Part shown: positions 9,474 through 17,973 of the stretch, one piece after another
Layout: every line of letters begins with the position of its first letter
Numbering within the stretch: position 1 is the stretch's first letter
Virus record (IMG/VR): IMGVR_UViG_3300030451_005087
Coordinates: 1 to 25,422 of that record
Direction: 5' to 3' (one strand)
Length of the DNA: 25,422 bases
DNA from: a virus
Made by a program: the position numbers and the translations under genes
Notes under the pieces: generated by a model
Databases searched by the model: none
Told to the model about the DNA's origin: nothing
The model's input: only the letters and a program-made list of their open reading frames with translations

Positions 9474-9815
9474 TTACCGACCACGAGGGTCTTGAACAGG
9501 ATAGCCTAATTGTGCAAAATGAATTATTATTTTGTCAAGATACTCCGAAAATTCAGATACACTTAAGTCCTTAGTAGACTCAATATCAAACAACTGTTTA
9601 ACTGTTTTGTGCATTTCATCTTCAGTGTAGCCAAGCTCATTGGCAATCTCTCTTATAATAGCTCTATAATATGCTAATTGCTTAGGAGAGTGGGCTTTTT
9701 CGGCACGTTTTACCTCAAGCCATACTTCACCCTCATAATCATATAAACTGCGTTTAAACCCCTCCCTATCATAGAGTTTTAACTTACCTTTTGTAACCTT
9801 ACCTGTAAATTTCAT
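9474..9815 (-). CDS. NinB/Orf-like recombination protein (probable)
   Basis: This encodes 113 residues. The central and C-terminal parts, SPKQLAYYRAIIREIANEL, GYTEDEMHKTVKQLF and STKDLSVSEFSEYLDKI, followed by QLGYPVQDPRG, match the pattern of lambda NinB (Orf) relatives: repeated short helices, then the TxxLSxxEFxxYL motif, then a Pro-rich end. NinB-type proteins bind ssDNA and assist RecA- or Red-type recombination. The ATG overlaps the upstream stop (ATGA). It is the last gene of the minus-strand cluster, directly after three nuclease-like genes, which fits a recombination role. The resemblance is by eye only. Confidence 0.5.
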   Translation of the reverse strand: MKFTGKVTKGKLKLYDREGFKRSLYDYEGEVWLEVKRAEKAHSPKQLAYYRAIIREIANELGYTEDEMHKTVKQLFDIESTKDLSVSEFSEYLDKIIIHFAQLGYPVQDPRGR

Positions 9816-10333
9816 AGAAATGGTTGCCTCATTTGATGTTCAGTATATGCGTTTGTAAGATTTTGTGGAGAATAATCAAATATATCTTTAATCTTGACTA
9901 ACAACAATCTGCTTGCCTTGTTGTCACCTCCCCAAACATCTTTTATCTTTTTTTCTTTCTTAAGCTCTTTTAATCTTCTGCGAAGCTCTTTAATAGGAAG
10001 AATATAGCCTCCTAATATAATATCTCTATAACTTAATAAATGAATCCAAGTACCTGCCTTAGTTTTACTTAATCCACTTTTGTATGGCTGGCATATTTGC
10101 ATCTTTCCGTCTACTTTTTTCATTTTATTTTCTATTTCAATGGCTATATTTCCTGAACCTGTCCATTTTAATTTTTCGTTTGTACCATATGATTGCTCGG
10201 TCTTTACCTCAATAGAAGGGTCTTGTTCTAAAATGGTCTGTACAATATACTCACCTTCCTCTCCTTTTTTGAGGCAAGATTCAAAATCTAATTTAATATC
10301 ATAATTATAATCTTTATAGCTTACTTTTGGCAT
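9812..10333 (-). CDS. PD-(D/E)XK-like nuclease, putative
   Basis: This encodes 173 residues. A helix with GEEGEY (24-29) is followed by a strand IEVKTE (41-46), then W57 and GNIAIEIENK (61-70). After that come KSGLSKTKAGTW (85-96) and a helix rich in Lys and Glu (about 115-132). The order Glu-helix, VK strand, GN-xx-xE-xE-xK, then SGL...T.A..W is what I know from phage PD-(D/E)XK-type endonucleases, with E66, E68 and K70 as candidate metal ligands. The exact active site cannot be fixed without a structural model. AAAGGG lies nine bases before the ATG. The start overlaps the 3' end of the HNH gene by 13 bases. Confidence 0.5.
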   Translation of the reverse strand: MPKVSYKDYNYDIKLDFESCLKKGEEGEYIVQTILEQDPSIEVKTEQSYGTNEKLKWTGSGNIAIEIENKMKKVDGKMQICQPYKSGLSKTKAGTWIHLLSYRDIILGGYILPIKELRRRLKELKKEKKIKDVWGGDNKASRLLLVKIKDIFDYSPQNLTNAYTEHQMRQPFL

Positions 10334-10596
10334 CTTCTAAACCCTTTATTCATTTGATAACAAACTTTCCACATATTAACATAATTTTTCTTTTCAAATT
10401 CTGTATTGCCAATCTGATGCCACTCTTGGTGGTGTTGTCGGCAAAGGGGAACGCAAGAAAAGTCCTCCACGCAATCGCTTTTTCTATTGCCCCCCATACC
10501 AATGGTGTCCAAGTGATGAGCATCAACAGGAGAAACGCCACATACAGAACACCCAAATCTCTTTACAAACTCTATATAGTCTTTATTTAAGCTCAC
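10321..10596 (-). CDS. HNH-type endonuclease-like protein
   Basis: This encodes 91 residues from a GTG start. Cys16/Cys19 (CSVCG) and Cys48/Cys52 can form a zinc site. DAHHLD (25-30) and LCRQHHQEWH (51-60) supply the His residues of a beta-beta-alpha-metal nuclease core, and GMGGNRKSD (33-41) lies between. This is the layout of small phage HNH proteins and of recombination-associated HNH domains of the DUF968/NinG neighbourhood. The GTG is preceded by AAAGGA eleven bases upstream and overlaps the resolvase-like gene by 14 bases. No in-frame ATG precedes the first Cys pair. In this cluster it probably processes recombination or replication intermediates rather than acting as a homing enzyme. 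Confidence 0.7.
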   Translation of the reverse strand: MSLNKDYIEFVKRFGCSVCGVSPVDAHHLDTIGMGGNRKSDCVEDFSCVPLCRQHHQEWHQIGNTEFEKKNYVNMWKVCYQMNKGFRRCQK

Positions 10597-10963
10597 GAAA
10601 CAATGTATCCTTTAGCTCTTTATTTTCCATTTCTAAAGATTCTTTTTCTTGGTATAAATCATTCATCCTATTTATAATTTCGCCAAGCGTTTCAACTGTC
10701 ATTGTCGCATAAGTTCCTGTTCTATTTCCTTTAAAGATTTGGAAATCCACTTCTTCATTTGGGATATAGAATGGTGATATTTGTGCTTTGCATTTAGCTT
10801 GCCATTTATATTCGTCATTAAGCGTTCCATCAACTCCTTCAGTAAGACCCATAGAACGACCATCACTCCCCCAAGCACGCCTGCAAGATAAGCCGACAGC
10901 TTCAAAAAAATTAACAATCCATCTTTCAAATGTATTCCCCTTTATTTTACTTTTATTTGGCAT
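10583..10963 (-). CDS. Holliday-junction-resolvase-like PD-(D/E)XK protein
   Basis: This encodes 126 residues. KGNTFERWIVNFFEAVGL (8-25) holds the first-helix Glu13. R28/R29 then WGSDGRS (31-37) follow, then GVDGTL with Asp45, then WQAKCK with Gln55/Lys57. This is the E...R..S.G...D...(E/Q)xK series of archaeal-type resolvases (Hjc/Hjr-like), with Gln in place of the usual Glu. Residues 95-126 form a charged coiled-coil tail (LYQEKESLEMENKEL). It would cut branched DNA before packaging. GGGG lies six bases before the ATG, and the start overlaps the upstream gene by 11 bases. Confidence 0.6.
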   Translation of the reverse strand: MPNKSKIKGNTFERWIVNFFEAVGLSCRRAWGSDGRSMGLTEGVDGTLNDEYKWQAKCKAQISPFYIPNEEVDFQIFKGNRTGTYATMTVETLGEIINRMNDLYQEKESLEMENKELKDTLFRELK

Positions 10964-11327
10964 TTTTTACCCCATTCGCAATTTGATTTACATAAATGTG
11001 CCTAAATTCTTCTGACCACATCTTTAGTTTTTTAATATAGGCATCTAAAGATATGTTTCCATCAATATAATCGTGAGCTACTACATCAAGACCATCTCTG
11101 CAAAAATCATATTCTCCTTTCTCTATTTTTTTTTCAGGGTCAAAATCAGGCATATCCTCTTGAGGGATTTGATATATATCCCAAATAACTTCTGTAGTTT
11201 TGTCAAGGTCTAAAACCTCATAAATTTGCATTCTATTACCAAAAACTTCCCCTAATTTATATAAAAATTGGTAAACTTTTTTTTGGTCTTGAAGTATTGC
11301 CCTTACTTGCTTTTCATTTATTTCCAT
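10953..11327 (-). CDS. Hypothetical acidic protein in recombination cluster
   Basis: This encodes 124 residues from ATG at 11327, starting MEINEKQVRAILQDQ. An in-frame ATG 15 codons upstream (11372) would overlap the preceding gene by 59 bases; 11327 has AAGGAATGGGAAG just before it and overlaps by only 14. The protein is mixed helical and acidic (IPQEDMPDFDPEKKIEKGEY), with HDYIDGNISLDAYIKKLKMW near the C-terminus. There are no catalytic motifs and no Cys clusters. The family is not recognised. Confidence 0.65.
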   Translation of the reverse strand: MEINEKQVRAILQDQKKVYQFLYKLGEVFGNRMQIYEVLDLDKTTEVIWDIYQIPQEDMPDFDPEKKIEKGEYDFCRDGLDVVAHDYIDGNISLDAYIKKLKMWSEEFRHIYVNQIANGVKNAK

Positions 11328-11538
11328 CTTCCCATTCCTTATATCTTTTGTTTTGTTTATACTTACTTCCAAATTCTTCTCTCATTGCACAATGTTTACA
11401 TACAATCTTGTTTACAAAATTATCAAGCAATTTTATAATTGCAGGGTGTGGTTTTAATAGGTAAAATATTGACCTGTTTTTATAAACGCCACATAGTTCG
11501 CATTTTCTACTTTGCTTTTCCGTTGGTGTGATTCTCAA
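11314..11538 (-). CDS. Small Cys-rich (zinc-ribbon-like) protein
   Basis: This encodes 74 residues from a TTG start; no in-frame ATG lies before the first Cys pair. Two pairs, CELC (13-16) and CKHC (47-50), are spaced as in a treble-clef or ribbon zinc site, with a basic linker and basic C-terminus (KYKQNKRYKEW). GAGGG lies ten bases before TTG. It overlaps its upstream neighbour by 32 bases. It could be a nucleic-acid-binding accessory; the family is unknown. Confidence 0.55.
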   Translation of the reverse strand: MRITPTEKQSRKCELCGVYKNRSIFYLLKPHPAIIKLLDNFVNKIVCKHCAMREEFGSKYKQNKRYKEWEDGNK

Positions 11539-11761
11539 TCGGTGGTATCCCTCTTCTATTTAGGTTTTGATTTACCAACTCAAGCAATCTTTTTTCAGTA
11601 ATCTTTATAAGATGTTCAGTTACTTTAGTACCAAACTCTGTTTCTTGACCATATAAAAAATTACCATCATCATCATAAACTGCAAGGCTCTTTAGTTTTT
11701 TTAGCTGACTTCTGTAAACAGCCATTATAACATCTCTTGTTTTTTGATTTGCAGACCTCAT
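11507..11761 (-). CDS. Hypothetical protein, 84 residues
   Basis: The ATG at 11761 follows AAAGGAACAT and lies eight bases after the stop of the small membrane protein gene. The protein is helical and basic at the N-terminus (QKTRDVIMAVYRSQLKKLKS), followed by a turn (YDDDGNFLYGQ) and a second helix (KVTEHLIKITEKRLLELVNQ). No motif is recognised. Confidence 0.65.
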   Translation of the reverse strand: MRSANQKTRDVIMAVYRSQLKKLKSLAVYDDDGNFLYGQETEFGTKVTEHLIKITEKRLLELVNQNLNRRGIPPIENHTNGKAK

Positions 11762-11769
11762 ATGTTCCT

Positions 11770-11916
11770 TTATTGTCTATTTTTTTCTTCAATATATATT
11801 GTCAATGCACTCATAAGTGCAACAACTATTGTGATTGTAGTGATGCTCAAGGCTATCCATATTAATATCATTATAAGTATATCTATCATAAATCTCCATA
11901 GTTTTGCCCTAGCCAT
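11770..11916 (-). CDS. Small single-span membrane protein
   Basis: This encodes 48 residues, starting MARAKLWRFM. Residues 9-42 are almost entirely Ile, Leu, Met, Val, Ala, Thr and Ser, long enough for one or two membrane passes, and a charged end (EEKNRQ) follows. Positive charges before the hydrophobic stretch suggest the N-terminus faces the cytoplasm. The stop lies eight bases before the next ATG, with the intervening AAAGGA as its ribosome site. No strong ribosome site precedes its own start. The opposite strand also has an open frame here, which I take to be a shadow. Confidence 0.55.
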   Translation of the reverse strand: MARAKLWRFMIDILIMILIWIALSITTITIVVALMSALTIYIEEKNRQ

Positions 11917-12001
11917 AGGACTTTACAGTTTTTAATGAGCAACTTGTAGCCTCATAATTCATTACGTAGTCAGCACACAAATTCTTACACTTGATTACTG
12001 A

Positions 12002-12087
12002 GTGCCTATGGCTCTCTTGGGCAATGGTAGGCATAGTAAGTAGGCAGACGAGAACCTACTTTAGGGAAAGGGCAACCTATCTATGCC
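12002..12087 (-). ncRNA. Candidate structured RNA element (three-way junction) inside operon
   Basis: GGCATAG (12030-12036) pairs with CTATGCC (12081-12087). Inside, AAGTAGG (12038-12044) pairs with CCTACTT (12055-12061), and TAGG (12062-12065) with CCTA (12076-12079). Only one unpaired base joins each arm to the outer stem and none separates the arms, so the drawing is a compact three-way junction. An alternative stem, GTGCCTA (12002-12008) with TAGGCAT (12028-12034), would use the same bases as the outer stem, so the element could switch. It lies between two minus-strand genes, its outer stem overlapping the upstream gene's stop, and is richer in G+C than its surroundings. The strand is inferred from the operon. 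Confidence 0.4.
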
Positions 12088-12271
12088 TTAATTCTTTTAA
12101 ACATTGTTCTGCTATTTTATAACTTTTAGCTTCAACAGAACACCTCAACCCTTCTTTCAACAACTTATTCTCAATCATAAGGATATTATTCTCTCTTTCA
12201 AGAACCTTTATCCTCTCATTTTTAATCAATATGTCTTTCATTGCTTCTTCCTTTTGGAAATCTTCATCCAT
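12077..12271 (-). CDS. Small coiled-coil protein
   Basis: This encodes 64 residues. AAGGAG lies five bases before the ATG. Residues 10-45 (KDILIKNERIKVLERENNIL and on) have heptad-like Leu/Ile spacing and high charge, as expected for a dimeric coiled coil. The C-terminus is basic (ELRHR). It lies directly after the O-like replication gene, and a loader or partner role is possible but unproven. Confidence 0.6.
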   Translation of the reverse strand: MDEDFQKEEAMKDILIKNERIKVLERENNILMIENKLLKEGLRCSVEAKSYKIAEQCLKELRHR

Positions 12272-12272
12272 A

Positions 12273-12668
12273 TCAACTCCTTGTTGGTTTTAAGTCTACG
12301 CCACAACATCTACTATTTTCCATATGAATCTGAAACTTATCATATGTATTACAATCACCACAAGATGTACAGAACCCTAATCGTGCATTACCTGATGGTG
12401 CAAGTTTAAAATCTGTTGCAACAATCTTTTTATTAACAATTACATCAGTTTCAAAATCATCTTCCCAATTTTCACCATTTATAAAAGTAGAGGGGTGTTT
12501 TATAAATTGAGGTTCAGTACCTTGAATCTGAATCTGTTTGATATATTTTCTAACGCCTTCAATGCACTCAATTTGAGTCTTTTTCGGCAATCTATTGAAA
12601 GATACCCTTGCCCTCTTCTTTTCTTTTTTTCGTGGATATATGCTCCAAAACGTATCAAAATTATCCAT
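12273..12668 (-). CDS. O-like phage replication protein with C-terminal zinc ribbon
   Basis: This encodes 131 residues from ATG 12668, preceded by AAGGGATTAGAT; an upstream in-frame GTG at 12695 would overlap the preceding gene. FDTFWSIYPRKKEKKRA (4-20) and FIKHPSTFINGENWEDD (55-71) are the two hallmarks of the C-terminal helicase-loader-interaction region found in phage replication initiators of the lambda O/DnaT kind. The usual N-terminal winged-helix origin-binding domain is absent. Instead the protein continues into a Cys cluster (C100, C103, C106, C121, C122) that looks like a zinc ribbon. It may recruit the host helicase using a separate DNA-binding partner or its own zinc finger. SSB is encoded two genes upstream. 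Confidence 0.65.
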   Translation of the reverse strand: MDNFDTFWSIYPRKKEKKRARVSFNRLPKKTQIECIEGVRKYIKQIQIQGTEPQFIKHPSTFINGENWEDDFETDVIVNKKIVATDFKLAPSGNARLGFCTSCGDCNTYDKFQIHMENSRCCGVDLKPTRS

Positions 12669-12678
12669 ATCTAATCCC

Positions 12679-12930
12679 TTAATTACAATTTGCACAACTA
12701 TCTACCTTTTCTTTACCTATTGATGGAAAATCGTGATAAATATCAATCTCATTGTCCTTGTAGAATCTTCTTGCATATGATAATGTCGGTTGAAAAACGT
12801 GCTTACAAGTCTTACAATAAAACATACGTCTGTCTTGTGATTGCTCATTGTCGCCACCGACATTTATTTTATCTAATTCTTTTCTAATTCTTTGTCTTTG
12901 TGTGGTTTGGATTGCCCAATCTATTCCCAT
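12679..12930 (-). CDS. Zinc-ribbon-like hypothetical protein
   Basis: This encodes 83 residues. AAGGAG precedes the ATG. CKTC (39-42) and CANC (79-82) form a likely four-Cys zinc site separated by an acidic loop. The N-terminus is basic (QTTQRQRIRKELDK). It is located between SSB and the O-like gene, so DNA or helicase binding is plausible but inferred from position. Confidence 0.6.
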   Translation of the reverse strand: MGIDWAIQTTQRQRIRKELDKINVGGDNEQSQDRRMFYCKTCKHVFQPTLSYARRFYKDNEIDIYHDFPSIGKEKVDSCANCN

Positions 12931-13260: not shown

Positions 13261-13801
13261 TTTCATTACCTCTTATTCTGTTATTTAACTTATCTATGTA
13301 TTCACTTGCTTTGCTTTTGGTTAGACCCTCAAACTCTATATGTCTTTTGACATTGGCTTGAACCTCTAAATCCATAATCAACTTTTTTTGTTTTTGTGTC
13401 GCAGGTATTGGTGCAACCTTTACCTCTTCATCAGGTTTCTTAAAATTATCTGCCTCTGAATCTGAATATATACCATATTCGTAAGCATTTATAAGTTTTA
13501 AGATACACCTATCTATTCCACGTTTCTCTCCCATCATCCCATAATATCTAGATTGACAATTCTCTTTACTTGCCTCACCAATAGATGTAATAGTCTTGTC
13601 ACCTTTAGACATTGTAATCAGGAATCTACAAAAATCTCTTTCACTATTTAAAGTTTTCCAATCTGTCATTACAATGTTTTCCATTGATGCAATCTTCTCA
13701 CAAGCATCGTGAGTTATAATCCACTTACCACTCTGCTTATGTTTCCAAAAGTCTACCTTTGGGTCAAGTTTATATTTAGTAGCTAACTCTTTAATCTGCA
13801 T
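13253..13801 (-). CDS. Putative ssDNA annealing/recombination-associated protein
   Basis: This encodes 182 residues. The core at 20-118 has KHKQSGKWIITHDACEKIA, SIGEASKENCQ, YYGMMGEKRGIDRCILKLIN and YGIYSDSEADNF. The block 'all AEKRA-like helix then ILKL, then SDSEAD' resembles Rad52-type/single-strand-annealing proteins coded next to SSB in many phages. The C-terminus (TQKQKKLIMDLE, then LTKSKASEYIDKLN, 135-172) is a short conserved helical domain seen attached to several phage DNA proteins. GGAG precedes the ATG. It overlaps the XRE gene by 11 bases and ssb by 8. The function is suggested by pattern and neighbours and is not certain. Confidence 0.5.
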   Translation of the reverse strand: MQIKELATKYKLDPKVDFWKHKQSGKWIITHDACEKIASMENIVMTDWKTLNSERDFCRFLITMSKGDKTITSIGEASKENCQSRYYGMMGEKRGIDRCILKLINAYEYGIYSDSEADNFKKPDEEVKVAPIPATQKQKKLIMDLEVQANVKRHIEFEGLTKSKASEYIDKLNNRIRGNENG

Positions 13802-13997
13802 TTACATCTCCAATATCATAAATATCTTCGGCAGTACATCCTAACACCTTGCACAATTTTGCTATATAAATACCACTTGGTTGTCTGTGATTGTTTACCC
13901 AATATGAAAAAGCAGTATCTGATACTCCCACAGACTTAGCTAAAAAGCCGTGCTTTATCCCCTTATCTGTTATTATTTGTTTTAAATTATTCTCCAT
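13791..13997 (-). CDS. XRE-family HTH regulator
   Basis: This encodes 68 residues. Residues 15-55 form the classic Cro/cI helix-turn-helix: GFLAKSVGVSDTAFSYWVNN followed by GIYIAKLCKVLGCTAEDIYD. It is a DNA-binding domain only, with no dimerisation or cleavage domain, so it is nearer Cro than cI in size. GGAG precedes the ATG. It is first in an SSB-containing transcription unit with a candidate promoter 39 bases upstream. Likely targets are the nearby palindromic promoter regions on the same strand (inference). Confidence 0.8.
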   Translation of the reverse strand: MENNLKQIITDKGIKHGFLAKSVGVSDTAFSYWVNNHRQPSGIYIAKLCKVLGCTAEDIYDIGDVNAD

Positions 13998-15502: not shown

Positions 15503-15612
15503 TATACTAACTCCTCTTTATGTTTCTCTAAATATTCTTTGAGATACAATTTTTCTTTATTGGTTAATTCTTCATTGTAGATAAATATTTTATTTAAGAT
15601 TATTGTTATCAT
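15502..15612 (-). CDS. Micro-protein, 36 residues
   Basis: The ATG overlaps the upstream TAA and is preceded by AAAGGAG; the TAA overlaps the next ATG. The product begins MITIILNKIFIY and ends in a charged helix (KEKLYLKEYLEKHKEE). Coupling at both ends is the main support. Confidence 0.5.
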   Translation of the reverse strand: MITIILNKIFIYNEELTNKEKLYLKEYLEKHKEELV

Positions 15613-15812
15613 TACAACTCCTTTAATCTTTGAGCTAATAATTCAACTACCTTTTTGCCTAATATCATTTGTCTTACTGCTATCTGACTACCATCAATTG
15701 CATTATGCTCTATACACAAACGTCCATCAGTAGTTACAATTAATTTTATTGGGCTACCACAATCATCTGTTAATTGTCTATTATACTTATCTAATATTAT
15801 TCCTGCTTTCAT
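15612..15812 (-). CDS. Hypothetical protein, 66 residues, first gene of early operon
   Basis: AAGGAG precedes the ATG. It begins MKAGIILDKYNRQLTDDCGS, then has beta strands (IKLIVTTDGRLCIEHN) and a C-terminal helix (ILGKKVVELLAQRLKE). It is the first gene behind the promoter at about 15850, so it would be among the earliest products. The family is unknown. Confidence 0.6.
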   Translation of the reverse strand: MKAGIILDKYNRQLTDDCGSPIKLIVTTDGRLCIEHNAIDGSQIAVRQMILGKKVVELLAQRLKEL

Positions 15813-15840
15813 TATCTAACTCCTTGTTTTTTGACTACCA

Positions 15841-15895
15841 TAACTTATTAACATTTGTTGATGTAATGCAACTATTATTTTTACTTTTGTTAAAG
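15841..15895 (-). promoter_or_regulatory. Early promoter/operator region, minus strand
   Basis: The core ATGTTAATAAGTTA (minus strand, 15854-15841) lies 29 bases before the 15812 start codon. A dyad AACA-TT-TGTT overlaps it, and ACTTT-TGTT-AAAGT (15882-15895) lies further upstream. The paired-dyad arrangement repeats the region at 15188-15240, including a shared GATGTAAT, pointing to one common regulator. Confidence 0.4.
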
Positions 15896-15929
15896 TTTTT
15901 TTAATCTATAGAGGAGAAAAAGATATTTC

Positions 15930-15958
15930 TTGCATAGTATTTTTAGGTGTAATATATT
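15930..15958 (+). promoter_or_regulatory. Predicted promoter for the structured RNA
   Basis: TTGCAT, a 17-base spacer and TATATT (5 of 6 to the -10 consensus) would start transcription at about 15963-15966, exactly where the first hairpin of the structured region begins. The -35 box matches consensus poorly (3 of 6). Confidence 0.4.
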
Positions 15959-15960
15959 TT

Positions 15961-16220
15961 CAGTCCTTATTCGTTTGGGTACTGCACTTTTGGGGATAAG
16001 GATATAGAAATTGGCTACCAAAAGATGACGACAAAGCCAATAAGGTATTCCTAATGTAGATAACGCCTGTCGTGGTACAGAATCACCTGTAAATGAATCT
16101 GCCGACTTTAGATTGTGAATTGATACTAAAGTTACTAATATACTGCATCGGCTCGGCTCGGTAGGTAAAGTAGAGGGTTCTCTGTCCTATATAATTATGG
16201 GATGTAGGGATTCCTCTACT
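15961..16220 (+). ncRNA. Candidate highly structured non-coding RNA, about 260 nt
   Basis: There is no open frame of note, and the stretch is visibly richer in G+C than the DNA around it. Helices: TCCTTAT/ATAAGGA (15964-15970, 15996-16002); TTGGCT/AGCCAA (16011-16016, 16035-16040); TACAG/CTGTA (16076-16080, 16087-16091); ACTTTAG/CTAAAGT (16105-16111, 16126-16132), possibly closed by GCCGA/TCGGC (16101-16105, 16148-16152); AGTAGAGG/CCTCTACT (16169-16176, 16213-16220) enclosing TCCTAT/ATGGGA. Tertiary candidates: the first loop CTTTTGG (15987-15993) with the second loop CCAAAAG (16018-16024), and second-loop ACGACA (16028-16033) with TGTCGT (16068-16073), a pseudoknot. One wobble pair (T16188-G16199) is pairable only on the plus strand. 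No match to tmRNA, RNase P or tRNA signatures is seen. Confidence 0.5.
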
Positions 16221-16433
16221 CATTCCAACATAACTCTCTCAATAGGTAAAGTAAATTAAGAAGTAAAAATATAGTAGATAGTTATAAAATTAAGATGCAA
16301 AAATATAATCACGATTTATAATTTCAAAATTATAGGTCAAAATTATAATAGTAAAATATAATTTATCATTCCTAAAAGACCTGCCCTCAACTTTAGGTTC
16401 AAAAAACGCTCAAAACGTGCATATAAATATTAG

Positions 16434-16446
16434 TTGTATTATACAA
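16434..16446. promoter_or_regulatory. Palindrome TTGTAT-T-ATACAA
   Basis: This perfect 6-bp dyad with a one-base centre has the same half-sites as the palindrome at 23232-23244 before the scaffold/capsid operon. It contains TATTAT, so it may be a -10 element, an operator, or both. Confidence 0.45.
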
Positions 16447-16464
16447 GTATATACATATTTTACG

Positions 16465-16494
16465 TGTGATATGATTTTAAATATTTTGTGATTT
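16465..16494 (+). repeat. 30-bp direct repeat, left copy
   Basis: It matches 18614-18643 at 26 of 30 positions, including ATTTTGTGATTT and ATTTTAAA. The two copies flank the AT-rich gene module 16714-18199 at a spacing of 2149 bp. It could be a recombination scar, a protein-binding site or an origin element. Confidence 0.5.
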
Positions 16495-16641
16495 AAAGTA
16501 TTACTTTAACTAAAATATCTAAAATTAGATTTTAACTTGATATTTTAAAAACATATTAACAAAAAAAACAAGAAAAATATTTTTTTATTTTTTTTTCTCC
16601 TCTATTAATAAACATTTATTAAAATTATTTTTAATATTTGT

Positions 16642-16671
16642 TTGACTTTATTATATAAAAACCTGTAAATT
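16642..16671 (+). promoter_or_regulatory. Possible promoter of the AT-rich module
   Basis: TTGACT, an 18-base spacer and TAAATT lie 43 bases before the first start codon. In such AT-rich DNA chance matches are common, so this is tentative. Confidence 0.3.
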
Positions 16672-16713
16672 TCATAAACTTAATTTTACTTAATTAAATA
16701 GAGGTTACTTAAT

Positions 16714-16926
16714 ATGGATAATAAATATATAAAATTATTACTTAAAAAAATAGACGGGGAATTTTGCGTTCAATATATTGAAGACGGCAAAATCAATGAA
16801 AGTAAAAGTTATTTTACAGACTGTAAAAAAGACGCAATGGAAACTATGGAGCTAATGAATATTAATGTAATGTTAACAAATTATTTTAACGGCTATAAAT
16901 TCCCATCAATACACGATAATAAATAA
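16714..16926 (+). CDS. Small hypothetical protein, 70 residues
   Basis: AGAGGT lies eight bases before the ATG. The product starts MDNKYIKLLLKKIDGEFCVQ, then YIEDGKINESKSYFTDCKKD and a helical TMELMNINVMLTNYFNGY. It looks like a compact alpha/beta fold of two strands and one or two helices. No family is recognised. It is the first gene of a plus-strand module whose codons are even more A/T-biased than the tail genes. Confidence 0.65.
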   Translation: MDNKYIKLLLKKIDGEFCVQYIEDGKINESKSYFTDCKKDAMETMELMNINVMLTNYFNGYKFPSIHDNK

Positions 16927-17052: not shown

Positions 17053-17973
17053 ATGAAAAAAATATTAAAAAATCATTCAGAAGTAGCACATTTTTGGGCT
17101 AATAAAATTCAAAGTGAAGGTAAGTCTTCTAATATGTTTTTTAAAGATAATATTATATATAGTTATGGTTATCATTTTCCAATAGCTAAACACGTAAACA
17201 AAGATGTAATTTTATTTACATCTAAAAGTTATTCTGTTAGCACGTCACAACATAAGAGCCATACAAGAAACGCAATTCCACATAATAAAACTGTATTTAC
17301 AGTTCCTAATATTGACGGTGGTAAATATTCAAGTTTAGATTTAAGTATTTCAGACCATCAAAAAAACATAGAATATTATATCAAAGAAATTAAATATAAC
17401 TTAAAAAAATCTAACAGGGCTAGAAAATTTAAAGAAATGCGTTTAAATAGAGTATTATCTTTAATTACAGAAATGAAAAAATATTTACAAATATTTAAAA
17501 TAAAATCTAAATTGACAAATAGTTTGAAAGCGTCTGTTAATATGGCTTTAAATATGGATTTTGATAAAATAAATGATATTATTAAAGCCGAACAAGAAAA
17601 AAACAAAAAAGCCAAACAATTAAGAAAAGCCGAACAAAAAAAGAAATTCTTTAAAAAACTTAAAGAATGGAGAAATTATAATATTGATAATTTACCATAT
17701 TATGAAAAGCAATATTTAAGACTTAAAAGAAATGGTTGGAACAATGGTGAATGGTGTGGAGACGTTCAAACATCATTAAATGTAAAAATTCCAATAGAAA
17801 CTTTTAAAAAATATTATGATATGTTAAAGTGTGGTAAATCTTTAATAGGTAAAAAGATTTCACATTATACAGTAAATAAACAAGATGACAAATTATTAAC
17901 TATTGGATGCCATAAAATTGAAATAAAAGAAATTGAATCAATAGCTAATCAAATAAAGGGGCTTAAATGTTAG
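17053..17973 (+). CDS. Phage hypothetical protein, 306 residues, central coiled coil
   Basis: AAGGGGATAAA lies directly before the ATG. The N-terminal domain (1-95) carries HSEVAHFWANKIQSEGKSSN, FFKDNIIYSYGYHFPIAKHV and VILFTSKSYSVSTSQHKS. I recognise this 'FWA-N...YSYG-HFPIA...YSV-T..H' pattern from phage hypothetical proteins of unknown function. Residues 105-225 are extremely Lys/Glu-rich and helical (AEQEKNKKAKQLRKAEQKKK), with few breaks. The C-terminal part (225-306) is a small mixed domain (KRNGWNNGEWCGDVQTSLNV). There is no enzymatic motif. The stop overlaps the next gene by 7 bases. Functional proposals would be guesswork; a structural or nucleic-acid-binding role fits the charge. 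Confidence 0.7.
   Translation: MKKILKNHSEVAHFWANKIQSEGKSSNMFFKDNIIYSYGYHFPIAKHVNKDVILFTSKSYSVSTSQHKSHTRNAIPHNKTVFTVPNIDGGKYSSLDLSISDHQKNIEYYIKEIKYNLKKSNRARKFKEMRLNRVLSLITEMKKYLQIFKIKSKLTNSLKASVNMALNMDFDKINDIIKAEQEKNKKAKQLRKAEQKKKFFKKLKEWRNYNIDNLPYYEKQYLRLKRNGWNNGEWCGDVQTSLNVKIPIETFKKYYDMLKCGKSLIGKKISHYTVNKQDDKLLTIGCHKIEIKEIESIANQIKGLKC

Follow-up and report, generated by a model that had tools for sequence, protein, structure and literature searches.

The question raised by this locus is what occupies the gap between a leftward and a rightward set of genes in a phage contig of 25,422 bases (hereafter the window, meaning the whole stretch of DNA that was analysed), which carries terminase, capsid, neck and tape-measure genes. 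The last gene of the leftward operon lies at 15612-15812 (minus strand), the rightward genes begin at 16714, and a reading of the sequence alone (the sequence-only reading) had described the region between as free of ORFs and richer in G+C than its flanks. Both points are borne out: no ORF of at least 50 aa overlaps 15905-16713 on either strand, and the G+C content is 39.5% at 15961-16254 against 25.7% at 15700-15960 and 17.0% at 16255-16700. The locus encodes a structured RNA of about 290 bases (15964-16253, plus strand), and the RNA family to which it belongs is almost certainly real. The explanation that best accounts for the whole, to which we assign a probability of roughly 0.55, is an ornate trans-acting RNA with its own promoter and two copies of a recognition sequence for one partner. 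Its features in the window are the following:

15930-15958, plus strand: predicted sigma-70-type promoter matching the consensus, with -35 TTGCAT (15930-15935), a 17-nt spacer and -10 TATATT (15953-15958)
15964-16002, plus strand: hairpin P1, 15964-15972 pairing with 15994-16002, with the kissing strand CTTTTGG (15987-15993) in the loop
16011-16040, plus strand: hairpin P2, 16011-16016 pairing with 16035-16040, with CCAAAAG (16018-16024) and the PK2 strand ACGAC (16028-16032) in the loop
16043-16068, plus strand: hairpin P3, AGG (16043-16045) pairing with CCT (16066-16068), with the PK3 strand GTAGAT (16056-16061) in the loop
16069-16073, plus strand: 3' strand of PK2, GTCGT, right after P3, pairing with 16028-16032
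16077-16090, plus strand: small hairpin ACAG/CTGT, whose loop AATCAC (16081-16086) is the 5' strand of PK4
16097-16102, plus strand: 3' strand of PK3, ATCTGC, pairing with 16056-16061
16105-16132, plus strand: hairpin P5 (ACTTTAG/CTAAAGT), with the 3' strand of PK4 (16115-16120) in the loop
16133-16136, plus strand: S1, TACT (in other phages TATCCA, TGTCCA, TAACCA, TATGC and others)
16162-16172, plus strand: R1, TAGGTAAAGTA, the first R copy
16170-16219, plus strand: 3' hairpin P7 (RNA fold), GTAGAGG (16170-16176) pairing with CCTCTAC (16213-16219), with an inner stem between
16216-16220, plus strand: S2, CTACT, in the 3' strand of P7
16221-16242, plus strand: linker 2, nearly free of G and probably single-stranded
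16243-16253, plus strand: R2, TAGGTAAAGTA, the second R copy, at which the conserved element ends

The 5' domain comprises, from 5' to 3', P1, P2, the kissing loop between L1 and L2, P3, PK2, PK3, P5 and PK4. PK2 joins the 3' side of L2 to the bases right after P3, PK3 joins L3 to the strand before P5, and PK4 joins L5 to an upstream strand, forming a chain in which the partner of every hairpin loop is either the loop or the single strand that comes next. Homologues were gathered from large-terminase relatives and by exact-pattern scans of IMG/VR, and the homologous element in other phage contigs shares 60-90% identity. The check for compensatory changes that the sequence-only reading had called for was run on these homologues and returned strong covariation in the helices that it had listed and in both of its tertiary contacts. 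The first of these, the kissing loop CTTTTGG/CCAAAAG, lies where it had been placed and keeps its pairing in all 322 cells. It shows 22 double changes (0/500 shuffles), three of its base pairs are altered on both sides, and it occurs in four versions, CTTTTGG/CCAAAAG, CTTTTAG/CTAAAAG, CTTTTTG/CAAAAAG and CTTTCAG/CTGAAAG. The second, proposed as ACGACA with TGTCGT, covaries at ACGAC(A) 16028-16032 and (T)GTCGT 16069-16073 and corresponds to PK2. Two extra pseudoknots were added to these contacts, namely PK3 (16056-16061 with 16097-16102) and PK4 (16081-16086 with 16115-16120). Among the helices, all nine pairs of P1 and all four modelled pairs of P3 are altered on both sides across the family (96.1% and 92.2% of cells paired, respectively); the ACAG/CTGT stem was observed only in the subgroup of the window.

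Strands read by hand in 22 members give a concordant account: pairing is retained in 127 of 128 cells of P2 (19 distinct strand pairs), 123 of 130 of P5 (17 distinct strand pairs, e.g., ACTATAG/CTATAGT in L128), 115 of 115 of PK2 (18), 135 of 135 of PK3 (19) and 105 of 111 of PK4 (15). Hand reading is open to bias, hence three controls were performed. As regards spacing, the 5' kissing strand abuts the 3' strand of P1 in 22/22 members, the 3' kissing strand begins one base past the 5' strand of P2 in 22/22, and the PK2 strand follows P3 at 0 nt in 20/22. When regions were taken by position and partners were swapped between phages, none of 5000 permutations reached the observed pairing for PK2, PK3 or PK4, each considered separately, and 12 of 5000 did so for the kissing loop, a contact of nearly uniform sequence. 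In model-made alignments, which were fitted to P1-P3 and therefore favour those helices, 94.0% of the cells of P1-P3 are paired and double changes number 285 against 74 in shuffled data, with pairing falling to about 40-44% when the partner is slid by one column; PK2, to which, like the kissing loop, these alignments were not fitted, reaches 78% pairing, compared with 48%, in an alignment where some rows are off register.

The boundaries, strand and promoter of the RNA had also been proposed. The 3' end is the one point that had to be moved, since the conserved part does not stop at 16220 but continues to about 16253. The preference for the plus strand holds: G-U pairs outnumber A-C mismatches across the family by 59 to 5, and for this reason the plus strand is taken to be the RNA. 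The plus strand has a folding energy of -82.7 kcal/mol, whereas its shuffles give -69.1 +/- 4.2 (z -3.2, 0/100); the folding energy of the minus strand is ordinary with respect to its own shuffles (z -1.0). The -10 box TATATT ends five bases 5' of the first helix, as had been stated, and the RNA is probably transcribed from its own sigma-70-type promoter, as judged from sequence. In support of the latter claim, the position of the predicted promoter is conserved, for 16 of 25 homologues carry a pattern of TTG, 16-19 bases and a sequence closely resembling TATAAT that ends 4-8 nt before P1, while at other offsets in the same 25 homologues the pattern is found in 0.31 on average and in 2 at most. 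In single sequences the promoter score is not significant and only the conserved position is, since in DNA so rich in A+T a single match is unremarkable. Inspection of the sequences past R2 revealed no intrinsic terminator.

A covariance model of the 5' domain recovers 50 members, all in uncultivated phage contigs and all with E <= 2.2e-8, and the element is present in a single copy per contig. All 19 long contigs carry the RNA at the same place in the genome, with an HTH regulator gene and the gene of a conserved 180-aa early protein upstream, and the small terminase gene usually 3-8 kb downstream (some of these 19 contigs are broken differently). The neighbouring genes are mostly antisense to the RNA, and thus it is not the leader of a fixed operon. 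Several contigs of terminase relatives longer than 20 kb, which may be fragments, show no match to the RNA. Outside these contigs, cultured phages (INPHARED) yielded no family match, the four weak matches falling in the AT-rich flank, plasmids yielded none, and the 22 matches of a pattern scan of GTDB genomes were each judged on reading to be due to chance.

Some observations concern the surroundings of the element. Eight of the 19 long contigs (G002, G004, G006, G008, G011, G015, G016 and G022) have their start no more than 4.5 kb upstream of the RNA, taken in its own orientation, which exceeds the expectation for even spacing; a genome end or a region that is hard to assemble may lie there. 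Beyond R2, the sequence is not common to different phage groups, and the DNA right after R2 is a gene mosaic in which insertions of about 0.1 to 1.4 kb with differing small genes start from the end of the RNA element (L048 17440-18979, L086 820-1480, L069 20243-20525 and L110 542-1083). A gene-cassette system with R at every boundary was considered and discarded, as no further R copies are found at other mosaic boundaries. In the subgroup of the window, the RNA is followed by a stretch of 17% G+C (16255-16700) with several copies of TATAATTT/AAATTATA-like motifs, and may serve as an origin or as a dense regulatory region. Further downstream, 17053-17973 (plus strand) encodes a 306-aa protein of phrog_7247, which has no assigned function. 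On the minus strand, 9474-12695 holds early genes, including relatives of NinB/Orf, an HNH endonuclease, a RusA-like resolvase and a replication initiation protein, and 13791-13997 encodes a small Cro/CI-like HTH protein (phrog_3, phrog_4). In many contigs its relatives lie a short way upstream of the RNA, and this gene and the RNA may be linked in their regulation.

The 3' domain holds a pair of direct repeats that was absent from the sequence-only reading. The order of its elements is P5, S1, linker, R1, P7, linker and R2, so that a bipartite S...R sequence is found twice around a hairpin, with S2 lying within the 3' strand of P7 in most groups. The P7 stem GTAGAGG/CCTCTAC becomes GCAGAGG/CCTCTGC in L010 and GGTTAGAG/CTCTAACC in L117. 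R1 and R2 are direct repeats of 6-17 nt, and their sequence depends on the phage: the window has TAGGTAAAGTA, L035 has AAGAGGAAGCA, a large group has AAGGTTGTA, L117 has AAGGTAACATT and L213 has AAGGGGATAGATATAAA, with AGGTATAATA and further versions in other phages. Among near relatives both copies are altered together, as in AGGGTTATAAT (L085), AGGTTTATAAT (L090) and AGGGATATAAT (L209) and, in a second set, AAGGCAAG (L200) and AAGACAAG (L221). The agreement of R1 with R2 within each RNA amounts to a mean shared run of 10.25 nt, against 5.80 nt when copies are swapped (24 members, 0/20000 permutations); the repeat is weak in the D group, where R (AAGCAA) has a length of just 6 nt. Likewise, S1 and S2 agree over 5.28 nt within a phage against 4.05 nt between phages (0/10000). 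S and R vary between phages but agree within one RNA, and hence the same partner may recognise both copies. This common-partner reading of the twin repeats is held tentatively, at slightly less than even odds. No trace of such a partner specific to the RNA, for example a co-inherited gene, was identified, and in the contigs checked no phage sequence other than the element itself is complementary to both R and S.

The same arrangement lends itself to a conformational switch, in which strand A, at the start of P7 after R1, would pair either with S1, closing a loop around R1, or with S2 in P7, and folding during transcription would pass between the two forms, hiding or exposing R1 and R2. Strand A is complementary to both S1 and S2, which are identical or nearly identical to each other, in all groups except C, and therefore P7 and the pairing with S1 are mutually exclusive in most groups. 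However, in group C (L083, L085 and L090) S does not pair with A and yet S1 and S2 agree, P7 is far stronger than the pairing of S1 with A, and a switch leaves the identity of R1 and R2 unexplained, all of which makes this explanation unlikely.

A different account would place the function of the 3' part in the DNA, the S...R sequence being a site bound by a phage protein of shifting specificity, such as a replication initiator, a terminase or a regulator, beside or inside the RNA gene. Direct repeats that are short, spaced by about 65-90 bp and vary together are typical of protein sites, and replication and HTH regulator genes lie close to the element, which is situated at a gene-mosaic boundary. 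Against such a site, R has no dyad symmetry, and the contigs contain no other such pair, apart from a few scattered matches to short R sequences. The composition of linker 2 also points to RNA, as its G and C contents are 4.6% and 26.8% (284 nt, 19 members), whereas the element as a whole has 21.1% G and 16.5% C; this avoidance of G, which is confined to the RNA strand, suggests a single strand kept open in the RNA. A DNA site is accordingly improbable. The related idea of R as a dispersed operator was rejected, since R occurs solely as the pair in nearly all the sequences checked; four of these have one or two scattered extra matches to a short R, none of which is adjoined by the complement of S.

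The RNA is also to be set against the known classes of structured RNA. The Rfam search gave no gathering-score match for the window or 13 relatives and, for the window, none beyond chance at E <= 5. Neither a riboswitch nor any other Rfam family exceeded its curated covariance-model cut-off. The lack of tRNA, tmRNA and RNase P hallmarks was upheld, for ARAGORN detected neither tRNA nor tmRNA and no Rfam match, including to RNase P, was obtained; tRNA genes are absent from the window and from 13 related contigs (ARAGORN).

The phi29 packaging RNA (pRNA) is a small phage RNA with loop-loop pairing and is not known to contain a pseudoknot chain. The present RNA shares its size class and loop-loop pairing but differs from it in having a pseudoknot chain, in lacking an Rfam match and, in most contigs, in being separated from the small terminase gene by 3-8 kb. 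The c4 RNA carries two short recognition segments complementary to a downstream target, and OMEGA RNA and tigRNA guides are structured RNAs with a variable recognition sequence. A phage RNA with two short recognition segments is what the present RNA and c4 have in common, although here the segments are direct repeats without a complement in the phage and no Rfam match is found. The c4 antisense RNA of P1/P7-like phages (RF01695) is listed in PMC2864571. With OMEGA RNA and tigRNA the present RNA likewise shares a structured fold and a recognition sequence that varies, but the 14 contigs searched contain neither a TnpB-type (PF07282) nor a Nop-domain/Tas-type (PF01798) protein. The retron reverse transcriptase domain PF00078 is also absent from the 14 contigs, with control genomes positive, and a guide RNA for TnpB, Tas or a reverse transcriptase was rejected, as no such protein is present.

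GOLLD and ROOL are phage-borne noncoding RNAs with elaborate pseudoknots and kissing loops, through which they assemble, and both, like the present RNA, have no assigned function (PMC12286853). As the sequence-only reading had noted, both are longer: GOLLD exceeds 800 nt in many members and is often near tRNA islands, and the ROOL member whose structure was determined by cryo-EM measures 659 nt (PMC12286853), against about 290 nt for the present RNA, which bears the twin S-R repeat, resides in phages without tRNAs and, in the window and 13 relatives, matches neither the GOLLD nor the ROOL covariance model of Rfam at gathering score, nor, for the window, at E <= 5. A homo-oligomer of the GOLLD/ROOL kind, or a phi29-like packaging RNA, would have its kissing loop join separate molecules, and the nearly invariant kissing sequence, together with the assembly of those phage-borne RNAs through such loops, speaks for it. 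The two loops are nevertheless adjacent, with a linker of only 5-9 nt between the hairpins and strands at fixed distances, which fits pairing within one molecule; moreover, the 13 relatives have no tRNA genes, unlike the tRNA islands of GOLLD and ROOL, and the repeats are left unexplained, so that we consider an oligomer quite improbable. A self-processing RNA, i.e., a new ribozyme in which R1 and R2 would be twin cleavage or joining sites for the same guide and the P7 segment would be released or circularised, is very improbable, for although two identical sites flanking a hairpin and a complex upstream fold are what such an RNA needs, no complement of R lies at a constant position within the RNA, no match to the group I intron or known ribozyme cores of Rfam was obtained, and manual drawing yielded no group I core.

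The RNA family is therefore new, as the sequence-only reading had suspected: it is unmatched in Rfam, its helices and tertiary contacts covary in homologues, and, within the libraries at hand, no known class tested shares the pseudoknot chain and the repeats. No description of such an RNA was found in the literature searched, and an unnamed entry in a large viral-RNA survey is possible. To our knowledge, twin repeats that vary together between phages are unlike those of any known RNA, and few phage RNAs are of comparable ornateness; other phage RNAs that lack an assigned function exist.

The molecule probably acts as a separate RNA. In the preferred reading, that of a trans-acting RNA with two recognition copies, the hairpin and pseudoknot chain of the 5' two thirds would form a compact scaffold, and the RNA would work in trans, either free or as an RNA-protein particle. 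One partner, which would differ between phages and may be a nucleic acid or a protein of the host or the phage, would recognise both S...R copies, making the RNA a two-armed binder or decoy. More broadly, and with considerable doubt, the family might represent a new class of re-programmable phage RNAs in which a conserved pseudoknotted body carries the same variable bipartite guide twice and tracks a changing partner in host or phage, as a bivalent guide, decoy or ribozyme without a described precedent. With about 50 members and four tertiary contacts with compensatory changes, it is a strong candidate for RNA structure work. The concerted change of the twin repeats leads to a clear and testable claim, namely that both copies serve one recognition event, and the identity of the partner would reveal the purpose of a phage RNA that has apparently been kept for long.
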